The notes beneath the pieces are model-generated. The model did not search any database. It was given only the letters and a program-made list of their open reading frames with translations, and was not told the origin of the DNA. Made by a program: the position numbers and the translations under genes. From positions 1 to 64,000 of the forward strand of contig JACQFP010000061.1 of assembly GCA_016200005.1 (NCBI GenBank): a DNA stretch of 64,000 nt. The letters run 5' to 3'. Source of the DNA: Verrucomicrobiota bacterium. GTDB lineage: Bacteria; Verrucomicrobiota; Verrucomicrobiia; Limisphaerales; PALSA-1396. Below, in pieces: positions 12,984 to 50,862 of the stretch (position 1 is its first letter; every line of letters begins with the position of its first letter).

Positions 12984-15440
12984 ATGAAAGTCACCCTGAA
13001 CTGGCTCAGACAATACGTTGATTTCAACTGGTCGCCCGAGGAATTGACCGCGCGTCTCACCATGCTCGGGCTCGAAGTCGAAGGCGTGCAAAAGCTCGGC
13101 GGCGAATTTGAAGGCGTGGTCGTCGCGCAGATACTATCGAGCGACAAACATCCCAACGCCGACAAACTTTCTGTTTGCAAGGTGGCCGATGGACAGGGTG
13201 AACGCCAGATCGTCTGCGGCGCGAAGAACTACCACGTCGGCGATAAAGTGCCGCTGGCCCTGCCCGGCTGCACGCTGCCCACGCCCGCCGGATCACCCCC
13301 GTTCACCATCAAAATCGGCAAGCTGCGCGGCGTGGAATCGCAAGGAATGATGTGTTCCGCCAAGGAACTCGGTCTCGCCGAGGACGCGGAAGGTTTGTTG
13401 ATTCTTCCGACCGGCGCAAAAGTCGGCCAACCCTTCGCTGAACATCTCGGTCGTTTCGCCGGCGATGTCGTTTACGACCTCGAAATCACCCCAAACCGAC
13501 CCGACCTCAACAGCGTCATCGGCATCGCGCGGGAAATTGCAGCCGTAACGGGAAATCCGCTGCGGATGCCGGAATTCAAAATTCAAAATTCAAAATTCAA
13601 AATTGATGAACTGGTCGCAGTCCGCATCGACGACGCTGAGCTTTGCCCTCGTTACACGGCGCGCGTCGTTAAGGGTGTAAATATTGGCCCAAGCCCGGAT
13701 TGGTTGCGTTCCACGCTGGAAAAAGTCGGCATCCGCAGTATCAGCAATGTCGTGGACGTGACGAATTATGTGATGCTTGAAAGCGGCCAGCCATTGCATG
13801 CCTTCGATTATCATCTCATCGCCAAGGGCAAGGACGACAAACCAACCATCGTCGTCCGCCGCGCGGTTGCGGGAGAAAGATTCAAGACGCTGGATGGGCA
13901 AGAGCGCACGCTTACGAATGAAATGCTTTTGATCGCCGACGAACAGCAAGGCATCGCGCTCGCCGGCATCATGGGCGGACAAAACACGGAGATCAACGAC
14001 TCCACCAAGGACGTGTTGATCGAGAGCGCTTATTTTTCGCCAACCCAGATCCGCCGCACGAGCAAGGCCTTGGGCTTGCGCAGCGAATCGAGCTACCGCT
14101 TCGAGCGCGGCGCGGACGTCGGCATCTGTGATTGGGCCAGCCAACGCGCGGCCCAATTGATTCTGGAAACCGCCGGCGGCCAGTTGGCCGGGGACGTGGT
14201 CGATGCTTATCCCCATCCGGTCGAAACTAAAACCGTTTCGCTGCGTGCTGAAAAGATCGCGCAGTTGCTCGGCGTTGCGATTTCGCGAGAGCAGGCGGAA
14301 GCCATGCTGAACAGCCTCGGCTTGAAAACCGCGGTCCGCGTGCCGCAGCCGTTGGACGGTTCGACAGACGCACCGTTGCCGCCGCTGAAATTCCGCATTC
14401 CGACTTTCCGCGTCGATCTCAAGCGGGAGGTCGATTTAATCGAGGAAATCACCCGGCTTTACGGTGTGGATAAGATTCCTGCCACAGCGCCGCGCGACGT
14501 GATTGGCTCAAACGCCTATGACGCGGTGCATGATCAACTGGCGGACGCCCGTCGCATTCTCACCGGCCTTGGGCTTTGCGAAGCGCAAGGACAGACGCTG
14601 ATTTCCAGCACGGAGTGCGGGGTGCGGAGTGCGGAAGCGGTCCGCCTTGCCAATCCGTTGAGTTCGGATATGGACGTGCTGCGCCCCAGCCTGCTGCCCG
14701 GATTGCTCGCTGCGCTGCGCCACAGTCTCACGCACAAGACTGAGGACGTGGCGCTCTTTGAGATTGGGCGGGTCTTTGCGCATCTGGACGGTCCGCCGCA
14801 GGAAGAGCGCCGCGTGGCGCTGGCGTTGACGGGCAGGCGACACCCCAGCTTCTGGAGCGGCGAGAATCGGGAGGCCACGTTCGACATCTTTGATTTGAAG
14901 GGGTTGCTCGAAGAATTCTGCGAGCAGTTCGGTGTGCGCGGATTGACTCATTCCCGTCGTGACGATGACCGCGCCCTTTATCTCGAATCCGCCGCGATCC
15001 TGTTGGGCAAACAAGTCATCGGTGAGTTTGTGCAACTTCAGCCGGTGCTCGCCCGGCGCTTTGACTTGCGGGCTGCCGTGTTGCTGGCGGAACTGAATTT
15101 CGATTTGCTGCTCGCCCGCCGCAACCCGTCCAAGTCGTTCAAGCCGCTCCCACTGTTCCCTTCCATCCGCCGGGATGTCGCCATGCTCGTGCCGGACGCG
15201 ACCACTCACGCAGCCGTGCTTCAGACGGTGAAACAGGCGAGGCCACAAAATCTGGAATGTGTGGAGTTGTTCGATATCTTCCGCGGCAAGAATGTGCCCG
15301 CTGGACAAAAGAGCATGGCTTATGCCTTCACGTATCGCCATTCCGAACGCACCTTGACCGATGCCGAAGTGAACAGTGCCCACGAAAAGCTGGTGGAAAA
15401 GTTCGGGACGGTTTTGCAAGCGGTGATCAGGGACAAATAG
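12984..15440 (+). CDS. pheT: Phenylalanine--tRNA ligase beta subunit
   Basis: An 818-residue large subunit of the (alpha-beta)2 PheRS. Start MKVTLNWLRQYVDF is canonical. The EMAP/OB tRNA-binding domain is at about 40-150 (SDKHPNADKLSVCKV, IVCGAKN), B3/B4 editing at about 205-400 (VVDVTNYVMLESGQPLHAFD, GIMGGQNTEI), B5 at about 405-500, and the C-terminal FDX-ACB domain near FPSIRRDVAMLV and FTYRHSERTLTDAEV. No pheS lies next to it. Two stretches look repeat-derived: about residues 197-206 (FKIQNSKFKI) and 543-553 (TECGVRSAEA), both encoded by low-complexity tandem DNA and absent from the usual family pattern as far as I recall. Confidence 0.96.
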   Translation: MKVTLNWLRQYVDFNWSPEELTARLTMLGLEVEGVQKLGGEFEGVVVAQILSSDKHPNADKLSVCKVADGQGERQIVCGAKNYHVGDKVPLALPGCTLPTPAGSPPFTIKIGKLRGVESQGMMCSAKELGLAEDAEGLLILPTGAKVGQPFAEHLGRFAGDVVYDLEITPNRPDLNSVIGIAREIAAVTGNPLRMPEFKIQNSKFKIDELVAVRIDDAELCPRYTARVVKGVNIGPSPDWLRSTLEKVGIRSISNVVDVTNYVMLESGQPLHAFDYHLIAKGKDDKPTIVVRRAVAGERFKTLDGQERTLTNEMLLIADEQQGIALAGIMGGQNTEINDSTKDVLIESAYFSPTQIRRTSKALGLRSESSYRFERGADVGICDWASQRAAQLILETAGGQLAGDVVDAYPHPVETKTVSLRAEKIAQLLGVAISREQAEAMLNSLGLKTAVRVPQPLDGSTDAPLPPLKFRIPTFRVDLKREVDLIEEITRLYGVDKIPATAPRDVIGSNAYDAVHDQLADARRILTGLGLCEAQGQTLISSTECGVRSAEAVRLANPLSSDMDVLRPSLLPGLLAALRHSLTHKTEDVALFEIGRVFAHLDGPPQEERRVALALTGRRHPSFWSGENREATFDIFDLKGLLEEFCEQFGVRGLTHSRRDDDRALYLESAAILLGKQVIGEFVQLQPVLARRFDLRAAVLLAELNFDLLLARRNPSKSFKPLPLFPSIRRDVAMLVPDATTHAAVLQTVKQARPQNLECVELFDIFRGKNVPAGQKSMAYAFTYRHSERTLTDAEVNSAHEKLVEKFGTVLQAVIRDK
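13571..13604 (+). repeat. In-frame (AATTCAAA)n tandem repeat inside pheT
   Basis: The unit AAAATTC is iterated about four times and is read in frame as FKIQNSKFKI. A related AATTCAAAATG/CATTTT element forms the intergenic repeat at 23583-23658. Confidence 0.75.
14611..14636 (+). repeat. In-frame CGGAGTGCGG repeat inside pheT
   Basis: Three tandem units of GGAGTGCGG / GGGTGCGG type are read as TECGVRSAE. This is a low-complexity insertion in the catalytic-core-like domain, kept in frame. Confidence 0.6.
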
Positions 15441-46270: not shown

Positions 46271-46338
46271 AACCCCTCCCCCGTCCTGACGGACACCCTC
46301 TCCCCCATCCGATGGGGAGAGGGGAAGGGGGGAGGGGC
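46271..46338. repeat. CCCTCTCCCC palindromic repeat
   Basis: CACCCTCTCCCCCATCC pairs with GATGGGGAGAGGGG, flanked by further CCCCTCCCCC and GGGGGGAGGGG arms. It lies between the cupin gene and queD (convergent). The same type is inserted in frame in the luxE-like gene at 50217-50259. Confidence 0.82.
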
Positions 46339-46854: not shown

Positions 46855-48216
46855 TCACTGTTCCCAATCCGTCCATGTCACCAGGTCGCCGAGTGCGGGA
46901 CGACCGTCATGGCGCCAGGTCAGCGGCGGATTTTGCATTTGGCCGAGCGGGCAAACCCGTGTCACGCCCCAACGCGCCAGTTGCGTGGCCAGTTCCGGCG
47001 CTTTGTCTTCCGGGGCGGCGAGTCCGACCGTGGAAACTTTTCCGTGAACACTGTCGGCGCATTGCAACGCCTCGGTCAAGTTGGCAACACCCTTCACATA
47101 AATAAACCGGTTCAAGCAGGACAACTGAAAGCGGGGATCGGCCTCGTAAACCACCGTCCAGGCGGTCGAATCTTTGCTGCACCAATGGCGCGTTTCCGGC
47201 GAATGTGCCGCCCGCACTTCGTAGAAGCCACGACGGGACGCAATCATGGCGGCGGTCTCGGTGGCAACGGGGCCGCGTGGTTCGGATTCCTCGCGCCGCG
47301 CCAGTTCTCCGGCGAGCAATTCTGCAAAATGTTCGGCGGACACGCTGCCGCCGTGCCCGACGTAAATCACGTGCGGCGAAAGACAGCCCAGTTGATTCCA
47401 CGCCACGATGTCGCTCGCCGCTTGCGCCACAAGGTTCTTCGTATTGAACCCGGACAAAGCTCCGCTCGCAATGTAACCAAAGCTGACGCGGTGGCCGTAA
47501 CCCAGCAAACGGACTCTTGGGGGAACGTGACACTGGATCTCGGCCAAAGTTTCGTCACTGCCGGTAACCGTCACGCAGTCCGCTTCATTGAACAGCGCTG
47601 CTTCCAATGCGGCGTTTCCGCCACGCCATTCCGCAATTTCCAGGCACGTGCCGAGTTTCGGTTCGGCCTCGTACAATGAATGCGCCAACAAACGCGGCAA
47701 CAGCGACGTGCCGCTGGCGCACTTCACGAATTGTGCCGAGCGGAGCAACAAACCGAGCACGATGCTCATCAGCGTCGGGCTTGGAATGTTGCCGGCGGCG
47801 ATATGCACGAGCAGTTCAGGCCCATTCGCCAGCGCAGCGCGTTTGGATTTCTGTTCCTCGGTGTTCGCGCTCAAGTTGTCGAGCCGTTGGGCGTGACCGA
47901 GTTCCTGGATCAATAACGCCTGCAGATTCTCGCTTGTCAGTTGCCGGAAAAACGCATCCAGACCGGCGGCCAACACGGGAGCCGAAAATCCCGTGGCGTT
48001 TGGCCCTTGCTCCAACGCCATTTTGCGGAATGGATAATCCCCACGCAGCCAGTTTGCTCCCGTCTCGCTCAAGAGTTTGATCAAAGTTTGCGTGGAACGG
48101 TGTTGAAGGTAACGCTCACGATTGCGTTTAAGCGTTTGACACGCCTCGGTGATCAGCATCGCGCTCAACGTTGCCTCCGCTGGCAAATCGGCCATGAAAT
48201 AATTCGGCAGGTTCAT
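46855..48216 (-). CDS. luxC: Acyl-CoA / acyl-protein reductase (LuxC family)
   Basis: A 453-residue NADPH-dependent aldehyde-forming reductase. Family features include LSAGNIPSP-like HIAAGNIPSPTLMSIVLGLL, the EWRGGNAALEAALF region, VTGSDETLAEI, LLGYGHRVSFGYI, and the catalytic Cys of QLGCLSPHVIYVGHGG. It would reduce activated fatty acyl groups to aldehyde. It overlaps the MFS gene by four bases and is third in the operon luxE-MFS-luxC. No luxA/B luciferase or luxD thioesterase is present, so bioluminescence is not implied. The symbol names the family. Confidence 0.88.
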   Translation of the reverse strand: MNLPNYFMADLPAEATLSAMLITEACQTLKRNRERYLQHRSTQTLIKLLSETGANWLRGDYPFRKMALEQGPNATGFSAPVLAAGLDAFFRQLTSENLQALLIQELGHAQRLDNLSANTEEQKSKRAALANGPELLVHIAAGNIPSPTLMSIVLGLLLRSAQFVKCASGTSLLPRLLAHSLYEAEPKLGTCLEIAEWRGGNAALEAALFNEADCVTVTGSDETLAEIQCHVPPRVRLLGYGHRVSFGYIASGALSGFNTKNLVAQAASDIVAWNQLGCLSPHVIYVGHGGSVSAEHFAELLAGELARREESEPRGPVATETAAMIASRRGFYEVRAAHSPETRHWCSKDSTAWTVVYEADPRFQLSCLNRFIYVKGVANLTEALQCADSVHGKVSTVGLAAPEDKAPELATQLARWGVTRVCPLGQMQNPPLTWRHDGRPALGDLVTWTDWEQ

Positions 48217-49478
48217 GGGGGATCAGGCGCGCGGAGAACGGAGGCGGGCGTCGCTCCGACATCAGGATTGATCTGCTCTTCGCGTTTGCGAATGGCGTGC
48301 AGACAGGGCAGTCCCGCCAGCGACAAAACGACGAACAATGCCAGCAGGCCGTAGATGGGAAAGTAGGCGGTCGGTTCAACGGCTCGCGCACCCAATCCCT
48401 TCACCCATTTGCCGACCAGCCAGTGCGACAGGTTGCCAATCAACCCTCCCACCGTGATGAAAAAACCGAACACACGCCCGCGCACGGCGTCGGGCACCGA
48501 TTCCATCAGCGCCGCCTCGATCATGGGATAGCCGGCGAGGAAGAAAAATCCATAAACCAGCAACGCAGGAATGATCCAGTTCCCCGGCACATGGGGAAAG
48601 ACCGCCATCACGATCGCGGCGATGACCAGCACCAGAAATGTCCAGCGCACGCGTCCGCGATCGCTCAGATGCCCGAACAACGGATTGCTGACCACCGACG
48701 CGATGAAGATGCAACTCAGCGCCAGGCCGGTCTCTTTGAGCGTGAAGCCGCGAGCGTTTTGGAGGAACAGCGACCCCAGACTACCCATGCCGGTACCGGC
48801 AAAGTCGCGCATGCTGAAGGCGAAACTCATCCCAATGAAGAAGAGCCACAGTGCCGGCGTCGCAAACATTTTCTCCTCCGGCATTTTGGTTTTCTCGACG
48901 GCTCTGGGCGCGGGTTGTTCCTCGGCAAACCAGGCAAAGAGTCCGGCGGCGACGATTCCCAACAATCCCAGTTCCAGGATTGGAGCGCGCCAACCGGCGG
49001 TGGCCGCGCGCCAGCCGGTGTAGATCGGGCCGATGAAAAAACCGATGCTGGCGCCGACACCGACCAGCCCCAGGGCCTTGCCCGTGCCCGTGGGAAACAA
49101 GCGCGCCACCATCGCCGTCGCCGCCGGATGATAAAAACTGCCGCCAAAGCCGGAGAGAATCATGCACGCAACCGCGCACGGATAATTTGGTGAGAACGCG
49201 AGTCCGACGAAACCCAGTCCATTGATCGCGAGTCCGTAACCCAGCAGTTTTTTGCGGCTAATGCGATCAGCCAGGATGCCCATCGGATAACTCGGAATGA
49301 AATAGCCGGCCATCATCACCGTCACCAGCAGCGTGGCTTGCCCCACGCTTGCCAGTTTGAAGTCCGCCTGGATCAGCAAATACAACGGCAGCAACGCCAC
49401 GTGGTAAATGTGCGTGAACGCGTGCAGCACCCCCGACAACCAAAGCGTGCGCGTTTTGTGGTTTCGCTCAGGATTCAT
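48213..49478 (-). CDS. MFS transporter (fosmidomycin-resistance-like)
   Basis: A 421-residue 12-helix permease. The first segment starts TLWLSGVLHAFTHIYHVALL, as in FSR-type transporters, and the inter-helix motif A is GILADRISRKKLLGYGLAIN. Another cytoplasmic motif, GHLSDRGRVRWTFLVLV, marks the second half. A central loop contains RAVEKTKMPEEK. The substrate is unknown; its place between an acyl-activating enzyme and an acyl reductase suggests export of an acyl-derived product. It starts one base after the luxE stop and overlaps luxC by four bases. Confidence 0.88.
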   Translation of the reverse strand: MNPERNHKTRTLWLSGVLHAFTHIYHVALLPLYLLIQADFKLASVGQATLLVTVMMAGYFIPSYPMGILADRISRKKLLGYGLAINGLGFVGLAFSPNYPCAVACMILSGFGGSFYHPAATAMVARLFPTGTGKALGLVGVGASIGFFIGPIYTGWRAATAGWRAPILELGLLGIVAAGLFAWFAEEQPAPRAVEKTKMPEEKMFATPALWLFFIGMSFAFSMRDFAGTGMGSLGSLFLQNARGFTLKETGLALSCIFIASVVSNPLFGHLSDRGRVRWTFLVLVIAAIVMAVFPHVPGNWIIPALLVYGFFFLAGYPMIEAALMESVPDAVRGRVFGFFITVGGLIGNLSHWLVGKWVKGLGARAVEPTAYFPIYGLLALFVVLSLAGLPCLHAIRKREEQINPDVGATPASVLRAPDPP

Positions 49479-49479
49479 T

Positions 49480-50799
49480 TTAACTTGCCATCAACGAACA
49501 GCCGCGTGGCTCGGCGGCCTTTGCCCGACCAATGAGTTCAAAACCATCGCCGCGGCGAACTCCCAAATCTTCCGTTTGAACCGCCATGACCGACCAGACA
49601 TTCGCCAAATCGAAAACCCGAATCAACCCCGTTTCGCCCTCACCGACCTCGTGTCCGGTTTCCGGAGAAATGATCTGCGCGCGCGCCCACGGCGGGAAGC
49701 GGAAGCAAGGTTGAGGGTTGAGAGTTGAGGGTTTAGAGTTTGCGTCGCCACCAGCAATTCGATCGTATGCTTGTGAACTCAATTCGCTCATGCCGTATTC
49801 ACAGACGATGTGGGTTGGCGGAATGCCGAGTCGTTCGGTGATGAGCGCGTGCAGTTCCGCTTTGAGCAATTCACGCGAACGTCCCTTGTATCCGCCCGTT
49901 TCCAAAACGCGCGACCCACGCGGCAGAGGAATTTGTTTTTCGCCAAGATGATCCAGCAGATGAACAAAGCCAAAGGCTGTGCCCAAAAAAACCAACGGTT
50001 GCTTCGGCGATTCGCGCAAAGCCGCCATTGTTTTCTCTGAGTTTACCGACCATGCGCCATCGCCAGCCACTTGACCTGTGAAAATCGAATCGCGCGTTCC
50101 AAATTCGCGCCGAACCGTTTCAAACATGTGCACCAACGATGAATCCGGCGCTTCCGTCGGCGATGGCGTCAACGACAGGATCCGGAATTTGTTCTTGAAT
50201 TGCTCGTGCGCGGATGACCCTGCTCCCTCTCCTGGGGGAGAGGGCCGGGGTGAGGGCGGTCGTTCACCACCAACTTTCACCCGTCCCACTGACCGCTCGG
50301 TCAGCAGGTGTACGGCAAACCACGACAGCAGTGACGCTTCGTAAACCGCCAGTGATTCAGCGTCGTGGAAATGTCGGCTGGGCCGCTGCTCCGTCGTGCC
50401 GCTGGAATGAAAAATGGTTGTGCATTCGGCCGGCGGCAGGCTGGTCAATTCCAATTCTTTGAACGCCGAGGTTGGAATCGCGGGAATGTTCGCCCAGTCG
50501 GTGATTGTTTCCGGCGACACGCCGCGCGCCTGGCAAAACCGGCGATAGGGAGCGTTGTGTGTGAATTGCAGTGCAAAAAGCGTAAGCGCCATTTGATTGA
50601 ATTCGTAGTCGCTGCGGAGCGCGGACAGCCTTGTCCGCACGTCAACTCGTGGGCGACATCTGGCGGACAAGGCTGTCCGCGCTCCGGCGTTGTGGATTGG
50701 CTCTGACTTGATTCCGCGTTCGGGGGAATGAATGAACTCGCGCCAGCGCGCGGCGAAATCCGACAATGTAGTACAAGTTGTCATGCGGTTTTGATCCAT
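49480..50799 (-). CDS. luxE: Acyl-protein synthetase (LuxE family) with repeat-derived insertions
   Basis: A 439-residue acyl-adenylating enzyme; ATG 50799 is used (50784 is possible). Family features are LFALQFTHNAPYRRFC, IPAIPTSAFKEL, the adenylation motif IFHSSGTTEQRPSRH, LVFLGTAFGFVHLLDHL, LETGGYKGRSREL and EYGMSELSSQAYD. Three in-frame stretches come from genomic repeats: residues about 39-63 (24-base perfect inverted repeat), 181-196 (PPSPRPSPPGEGAG) and 353-365 (NSKPSTLNPQPC). These lie between family blocks, so the enzyme may still work. First gene of luxE-MFS-luxC. It activates fatty acid for the LuxC-type reductase. Confidence 0.85.
   Translation of the reverse strand: MDQNRMTTCTTLSDFAARWREFIHSPERGIKSEPIHNAGARTALSARCRPRVDVRTRLSALRSDYEFNQMALTLFALQFTHNAPYRRFCQARGVSPETITDWANIPAIPTSAFKELELTSLPPAECTTIFHSSGTTEQRPSRHFHDAESLAVYEASLLSWFAVHLLTERSVGRVKVGGERPPSPRPSPPGEGAGSSAHEQFKNKFRILSLTPSPTEAPDSSLVHMFETVRREFGTRDSIFTGQVAGDGAWSVNSEKTMAALRESPKQPLVFLGTAFGFVHLLDHLGEKQIPLPRGSRVLETGGYKGRSRELLKAELHALITERLGIPPTHIVCEYGMSELSSQAYDRIAGGDANSKPSTLNPQPCFRFPPWARAQIISPETGHEVGEGETGLIRVFDLANVWSVMAVQTEDLGVRRGDGFELIGRAKAAEPRGCSLMAS
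49709..49741. repeat. GAGGGTTGAGAGTTGAGGG repeat inserted in frame in luxE
   Basis: Tandem GGTTGAG/GAGTTGAGGGTTTAGAG units are read on the minus strand as SKPSTLNPQP. It is the third repeat within this gene. Confidence 0.75.
50217..50259. repeat. CCCTCTCCTGGGGGAGAGGG palindrome inserted in frame in luxE
   Basis: CCCTCTCC-TGG-GGGAGAGGG is a short hairpin followed by CCGGGGTGAGGG. On the minus strand it is read as SPRPSPPGEGAG. The same family is intergenic at 46271-46338. Confidence 0.85.
50615..50686. repeat. 24-base perfect inverted repeat (GCGGACAGCCTTGTCCGC type) inserted in frame in luxE
   Basis: Arms 50615-50638 and 50663-50686 are exact inverse complements, each containing GCGGACAGCCTTGTCCGC or its complement, around a 24-base centre. 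It is translated on the minus strand as GARTALSARCRPRVDVRTRL and on to SALRS. Confidence 0.9.
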
Positions 50800-50832
50800 G
50801 TGCCGGCTGGTTTTCCGCTACAGCCGTGGAAA

Positions 50833-50862
50833 GTGTCGAATGTCGAATGCCGAATGTCGAGC
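50833..50862. repeat. GAATGTCGAATGCCGAATGTCGA tandem repeat
   Basis: Three to four GTCGAATG/GCCGAATG units lie in the gap between the divergent luxE and DUF456 genes. It resembles the other low-complexity repeats of the window. Confidence 0.65.

Follow-up and report, generated by a model that had tools for sequence, protein, structure and literature searches.

Three short, mutually unrelated DNA repeats lie within one gene of a verrucomicrobial genome, and all three appear to be read as protein. How did they come to be there, and why does the gene tolerate them? The window analyzed here, a stretch of 64,000 nucleotides from contig JACQFP010000061.1 (assembly GCA_016200005.1, order Limisphaerales), belongs to a draft genome that totals 6.54 Mb in 87 contigs. 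A first-pass annotation made from the letters alone had described three repeat families inserted in frame in one luxE-like gene, and had taken them as a sign of active spread of very small repeats with selection for frame. In this report, we confirm that the three families are unrelated, that the elements (termed A, B and C) are all read in one open frame of the LuxE-like ORF, and that each recurs genome-wide. We consider it probable, at about three chances in four, that they are small dispersed repeats lodged in tolerant loops and filtered by reading frame, stop codons and protein fold.

The LuxE-like gene and its surroundings

The ORF matches the PF04443 (LuxE) profile with 61.4 bits (gathering score, 24.9), and the AlphaFold (AF2) model of its product (pTM 0.84) has an ANL/PaaK-type fold. 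The protein scores 53.4 against a cut-off of 550 for the NCBIfam LuxE equivalog and thus falls short of it; its nearest relatives are from Limisphaerales/Verrucomicrobiota. The features discussed below are as follows.

49480..50799, minus strand: LuxE-like acyl-protein synthetase ORF, 439 aa (PF04443 match, AF2 model, conserved N-terminal “NRM”)
49709..49741, minus strand: element C, heptad array (CTCAACY)n, encoding about aa 353-364 (PSTLNPQP); TRF period 7
50217..50259, no strand assigned: element B, hairpin CCCTCTCC-TGGG-GGAGAGGG plus tail GGGTGAGGG, encoding about aa 181-194; dispersed copies
50605..50614, plus strand: putative remnant (GTAG tag plus hairpin) of an earlier GTAG-REP, left of element A (GTAGTCGCTG vs GTAG-REP GTAGCAGC)
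50615..50686, no strand assigned: element A, GGAG-tagged twin hairpin (REP-type doublet), encoding about aa 38-62; perfect inverted repeat
50687..50709, plus strand: REP-like tail right of element A, GCGTTGTGGATTGGCTCTGACTT, resembling the tails by A copies L061, L062 and L071 and the GTAG-REP tail ...GTGAGAAGGCTCTGA
50779..50827, minus strand: conserved 5' leader of the LuxE-like gene, GGCTG hairpin, common to 21 luxE loci
50834..50860, plus strand: a fourth repeat, the intergenic heptad array TGTCGAA/TGCCGAA, upstream of the LuxE-like gene; TRF period 7

The gene caller placed the luxE start within element A; homologues have a conserved N-terminal helix upstream of A. The true start is probably the ATG at 50784, because the “NRM” is conserved there, and a start at this codon keeps A and everything downstream of it translated. 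The gene adjoins luxC-like (acyl-CoA reductase) and MFS transporter genes in an operon-like row (46855-49478, minus strand), whose role is possibly fatty-aldehyde production unrelated to light.

The leader takes the form GGCTGTNGCGGAAAACCAGCC...AAAACCGC-ATG at 21 luxE loci including that of the window, 20 of them aligned. Its hairpin stem covaries, with two pairs changed on both sides and 98.5% of cells paired, against 14-38% in slid controls. The loop, GCGG, is complementary to the CCGC directly before the ATG start codon, which suggests a pseudoknot that would control translation. An Rfam search with the leader returned no match. When the leader model R1 was run against 195 genomes of the phylum, the one strong match was the present genome, a member of the training set; the rest were weak, and no other genome of the order was among those listed.

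Families behind the three elements

The inverted repeat of element A is perfect, as had been claimed: its 24-nt arms (50615-50638 and 50663-50686) are 100% complementary and flank a 24-nt spacer, and a single arm itself folds as a hairpin (GCGGACA-GCCT-TGTCCGC). With up to 3 mismatches allowed, the 18-nt core of the arm has 83 matches in the 6.54-Mb genome, compared to 15 for a reversed-pattern control. We read 27 copies as paired inverted doublets, in which the arms are conserved and the centers variable. Across the order, A is patchy, occurring in 25 of 116 genomes and 20 of 81 genera, with reversed controls giving 0-1 match per genome and strand. The element thus has the build of a REP, i.e. 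a multi-copy palindromic unit of 20-40 bp whose oppositely oriented units form doublets. Because its arms start with GGAG, and not with the GTAG or CGTC tag of the GTAG superfamily, we call it REP-type rather than a GTAG-REP. GGAG-tagged hairpins are themselves enriched in the genome (56, vs 4-28 for nine other tags).

GTAG-tagged REPs are present as well: a 1.26-Mb sample of the genome contains 66 of their arms (up to 3 mismatches; control, 4). Composite repeats at loci L050, L056, L058, L060, L062 and L071 have GTAG-REP-like flanks around a GGAG-REP doublet, and elsewhere such flanks surround AAATCCG heptads. The long conserved flanks of some A copies had raised the possibility of a 150-bp element; we rejected it, as the flanks look like GTAG-REP doublets enclosing A. 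A flank-score classifier missed the luxE copy because of its closeness to the N terminus. In the literature, the mobilization of REP doublets is attributed to Y1/RAYT transposases (PMC3733652), and the genome holds four Y1_Tnp genes; no REP tightly flanking these four was found, and a GGAG arm is located some 1.2 kb away from one of the genes.

The hairpin of element B, likewise reported earlier, consists of CCCTCTCCTGGGGGAGAGGG at 50225-50244 and the tail at 50248-50256; its full pattern, allowing 3 mismatches, has 36 copies in the genome and none in the control. A second B-type hairpin, CCCTCTCCC...GGGAGAGGG, lies between genes at 46296-46323. In the homologue at L018, loop B reads SPPGWERGE, a peptide that at the protein level looks like another B-type element.

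Element C is indeed a tandem, with a unit of seven bases by TRF (GGTTGAG, or CTCAACY on the coding strand) and not the ten first proposed. Three units of CTCAACY have 79 exact (overlapping) matches genome-wide, and within the order they occur in 31 of 116 genomes. We discarded the reversed-pattern control for this motif as not independent, because CTCAACT is circularly mirror-symmetric. To place C among other heptads, we used 1.26 Mb of contigs from the same genome (loci L089-L148 plus the window) together with copy-centered loci; the gene caller, trained on this genome, found 997 genes and 88-90% coding in the 1.26 Mb. Perfect runs, defined as 14 or more matches at lag p with p from 4 to 30, numbered 33 in the 1.26 Mb at p=7 (23 in genes, 10 outside) and were otherwise scarce: 4 in genes and 2 outside at p=14, 0-2 in genes at every other p, and 0 in codon-shuffled genes. 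Such over-representation of the 7-bp unit over other unit sizes is typical of heptanucleotide SSRs. Their described, mainly intergenic location was not found here. The first-pass annotation had proposed counting copies inside and outside genes, and 63 of the 97 TRF arrays of period 7, 14 or 21 lie within genes (a few of period 14 and 21 being ordinary coding repeats), 45 of them deep inside the gene, flanked left and right by coding sequence. Their hosts include the gene for RdgB and the housekeeping genes uvrA (UvrA), pheT (PheT), der (Der) and rlmN (RlmN), in which the arrays are in frame. In the window, pheT carries two different arrays, AATTCAA at 13573-13604 and CGGAGTG at 14611-14635 (plus strand).

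What process makes these arrays? Their lengths peak near 30-32 nt, only about four units; CTCAACY (23 arrays) and AAATCCG (13) dominate; and we found no shared flanks among them. The start phases are biased, 8 of 14 TCACG arrays beginning one step earlier, mostly as CATCACG. Local polymerase slippage with a 7-nt step and no dispersal, which a 2007 survey suggested for the bacterial heptamer excess (as cited in PMC4692102), would account for the strict period and the unshared flanks. It does not sit easily with the dominance of a few motifs that recur across genera, or with four AAATCCG arrays that are spacers inside GTAG-REP doublets, and we regard it as possible but doubtful. These four arrays indicate that some heptads may move with REPs. 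We rejected travel solely as REP-doublet spacers, because just 4 of 95 arrays are bordered at either end by GTAG-REP-type arms. The length peak, the few dominant motifs and the unshared flanks, taken together, are predicted by neither transposition nor simple slippage. We raise, tentatively, a more specific proposal: that Limisphaerales possess a dedicated process by which short arrays built of 7-nt units are written or spread into DNA, coding sequence included, and that protein loops accumulate them and have them rewritten with other motifs between sister species. Such a process would typically lay down about 30 nt, in 4-5 units whose motifs belong to a small shared repertoire, and its candidates would be a template-guided polymerase or a REP-linked mechanism; as 7 is coprime to 3, its arrays would be phase-neutral and for that reason would accumulate in protein loops.

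Reading frame, loops and the sister species

Since 7 and 3 have no common factor, the seven-residue cycle that a heptad array encodes is identical whichever of the three frames is read, and a stop-free strand is thus open in every frame. A simple filter model, with random insertion into a genome that is 88.5% coding and survival when the insertion is in frame (1/3) and sense-open (1/2), predicts a ratio of copies in genes to copies outside near 1.3 for arrays with one stop-free strand and near 2.6 for those with two open strands. By gene position we counted 54 heptads in genes, 23 outside and 6 at gene edges; with edges excluded, the split is 38:12 for one open strand and 16:10 for two. From these ratios, genes show no clear shortage of heptads apart from that due to the frame filter. 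Among the intragenic one-strand arrays, 35 of 38 have the stop-free strand in sense, a bias that in part follows from how an ORF is defined; it speaks for purifying loss where a copy breaks the frame. The observations agree with copies inserting first, and those that break the frame or introduce a stop being removed afterwards. The earlier “selection for frame” survives in the sense that frame-breaking copies are lost, and is best read as the survival of in-frame, stop-free insertions where loops tolerate them. The claimed spread of very small repeats holds as dispersal within the genome and, patchily, the order; nothing we found supports the word “active”.

Genes with a heptad, a B element and a REP together are rare, but the LuxE-like gene is not unique: 3 of the 997 sampled genes have all three (0.019 expected if the classes were independent), namely this gene, uvrA and a gene at C47:20040-22673. 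The LuxE-like gene was chosen for this very property, and the fair count is the two others. The uvrA of this genome (L112, 5591-8977, minus strand) holds five heptad arrays of several motifs, one B and five REP arms. Across uvrA of 30 Limisphaerales we found 26 lag-7 arrays (29 minus 3 runs of N), and at the other lags from 5 to 12 only the 3 N-runs and one lag-12 array. One UvrA loop carries CTCAACY here, CCGCACT in the sister species and AAAACTC or GATCACG in others; one relative has a non-repeat loop of similar length. Thus, sister species carry different heptads at the same UvrA loop, and the motifs turn over.

The clustering of the three classes in a subset of genes, and the presence of a DNA repair gene among the hosts, as has been reported for REPs (PMC3733652), could mean that the inserts are kept for a benefit of their peptides or of the repeat DNA itself, e.g. 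as regulatory sites, in phase variation or in protein interaction. We judge this unlikely. The same loop holds different heptads, and hence different peptides, in sister species; arrays of about four units are short for slippage switching; and the split between genes and other DNA fits the simple frame filter.

Element A behaves differently from the heptads in its location: 20 of its 27 copies are outside called genes, 5 are inside and 2 at an edge. It is thus rarer in genes than the frame filter alone predicts, and its predominantly extragenic location is a further hallmark of REPs. The likeness to the protein-coding palindromic elements of Rickettsia (RPEs) that had been drawn does not survive this count. 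As in an RPE, a palindromic repeat is read in frame as part of a protein within an ORF; RPEs, in contrast, are found preferentially in genes and in frame, whereas A is mostly extragenic and has the architecture of a tagged REP doublet. On this comparison of location and architecture, we hold homology with RPEs to be very improbable.

The protein itself appears to accommodate all three elements in its loops. The AF2 model has pLDDT below 50 at residues 1-6, 31-42, 171-179 and 354-361, and A, B and C lie in or adjoin the last three of these segments. An alignment with 34 other homologous sequences places them in three length-variable stretches between conserved blocks, in keeping with what had been claimed. 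At site C, other genera have other heptads or none. The sole genome of the same genus that we compared, that of the sister species (G001), has a luxE about 68-70% identical, with B at the same place and, at C, the point at which its assembly breaks off, a CTCAACY heptad. Its random contigs have few heptads, 3 period-7 arrays in 188 kb, so that heptads must vary strongly in number, either from one sister species to the other or from region to region.

The sister gene is without A and is 75 nt shorter there, in frame. We rejected it as an empty site, as it carries at this place a GTAG-REP, CGTAGCAGCCGACGTGAG / CGTAGCAGCCGACGTGAGAAGGCTC, an exact 18/18 match to the GTAG-tagged REP. In the window, A is still bordered by GTAG at one end and by a REP-like tail at the other. 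The simplest reading of these sequences is that A inserted, nested, into an older GTAG-REP; the difference could instead reflect a deletion in the sister, and the polarity of the change is our inference.

That the residues belong to the LuxE family and merely resemble repeats scarcely deserves credence: B and C do recur in the sister species, but the 33 homologues from outside the genus have other residues or none at all three sites, which disposes of the objection that the sequence is ancestral; dozens of unrelated sites carry the same DNA; and the AF2 block means are about 44-58 for the three segments, against more than 90 for most of the core.

We therefore return to small dispersed repeats in tolerant loops, and propose the following course. 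The LuxE-like protein would have three surface loops that tolerate changes in length, in which such repeats lodge. Loop A would have received a GTAG-tagged REP, which stands alone in the sister, and then, in the lineage of this genome, a GGAG-tagged REP doublet of 75 nt nested in that REP; a GC-rich hairpin from another dispersed family would have entered loop B, and a heptad array loop C. The REP doublets were presumably copied by the genome's Y1/RAYT-type transposases, and the heptads would arise or spread by a process strictly bound to steps of 7 nt. Any copy that shifted the frame, introduced a stop codon or struck the folded core would be lost, and in-frame, stop-free copies in loops would survive, probably almost neutrally.

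Known repeats and significance

Intragenic copies of GTAG- and CGTC-tagged REPs have been described in Opitutus terrae (Verrucomicrobiota) and Rickettsia conorii, and some published REPs lie in frame within ORFs, often in repair genes including uvrA, also in a verrucomicrobium (PMC3733652). Those are short, tagged, dispersed palindromes, often inverted doublets with a spacer, and the GTAG-REPs of this genome have the same build. The present case differs in that A is tagged GGAG, in that REPs here are nested and can enclose heptads, and in that one and the same site holds different REPs in sister species. With MITEs, A shares its shortness, terminal inverted repeats, multiple copies and non-autonomy; no target-site duplication was seen by eye in the flanks of the 27 copies.

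Heptamer repeats are also known from bacteria: TAACTGA in Beggiatoaceae, cyanobacteria and Bacteroidetes (PMC4679880), and GGGAATC in Xanthomonas, mostly as four units, and GGGGAYT in Nostoc (PMC4692102). As here, a 7-bp unit is favored and the families are dispersed. The described repeats are mainly intergenic, with one motif per genome, whereas this genome has many motifs, about two thirds of its arrays in genes and many of them deep inside conserved enzymes, and motifs are replaced between sister species. In the collection of papers searched, none joins “heptanucleotide” and Verrucomicrobiota. Thus, intragenic REPs and bacterial heptamers are each known, and in-frame, motif-swapping heptads within conserved genes are apparently new.

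These observations carry a warning for annotation, since peptides like STLNPQP, SRITHHA, KSEIRNP and SALRTPH stem from the in-frame translation of repeat DNA and are not protein motifs. In at least some genomes of the order, each sampled megabase holds heptad arrays by the dozen, and conserved genes, uvrA for one, are among their sites. The preference of bacteria for 7-bp tandem repeats has, as cited in PMC4692102, been an open question since the 2007 survey. With sister genomes that carry different heptads at one loop, the origin, turnover and tolerance of these repeats become measurable by the comparison of orthologues.
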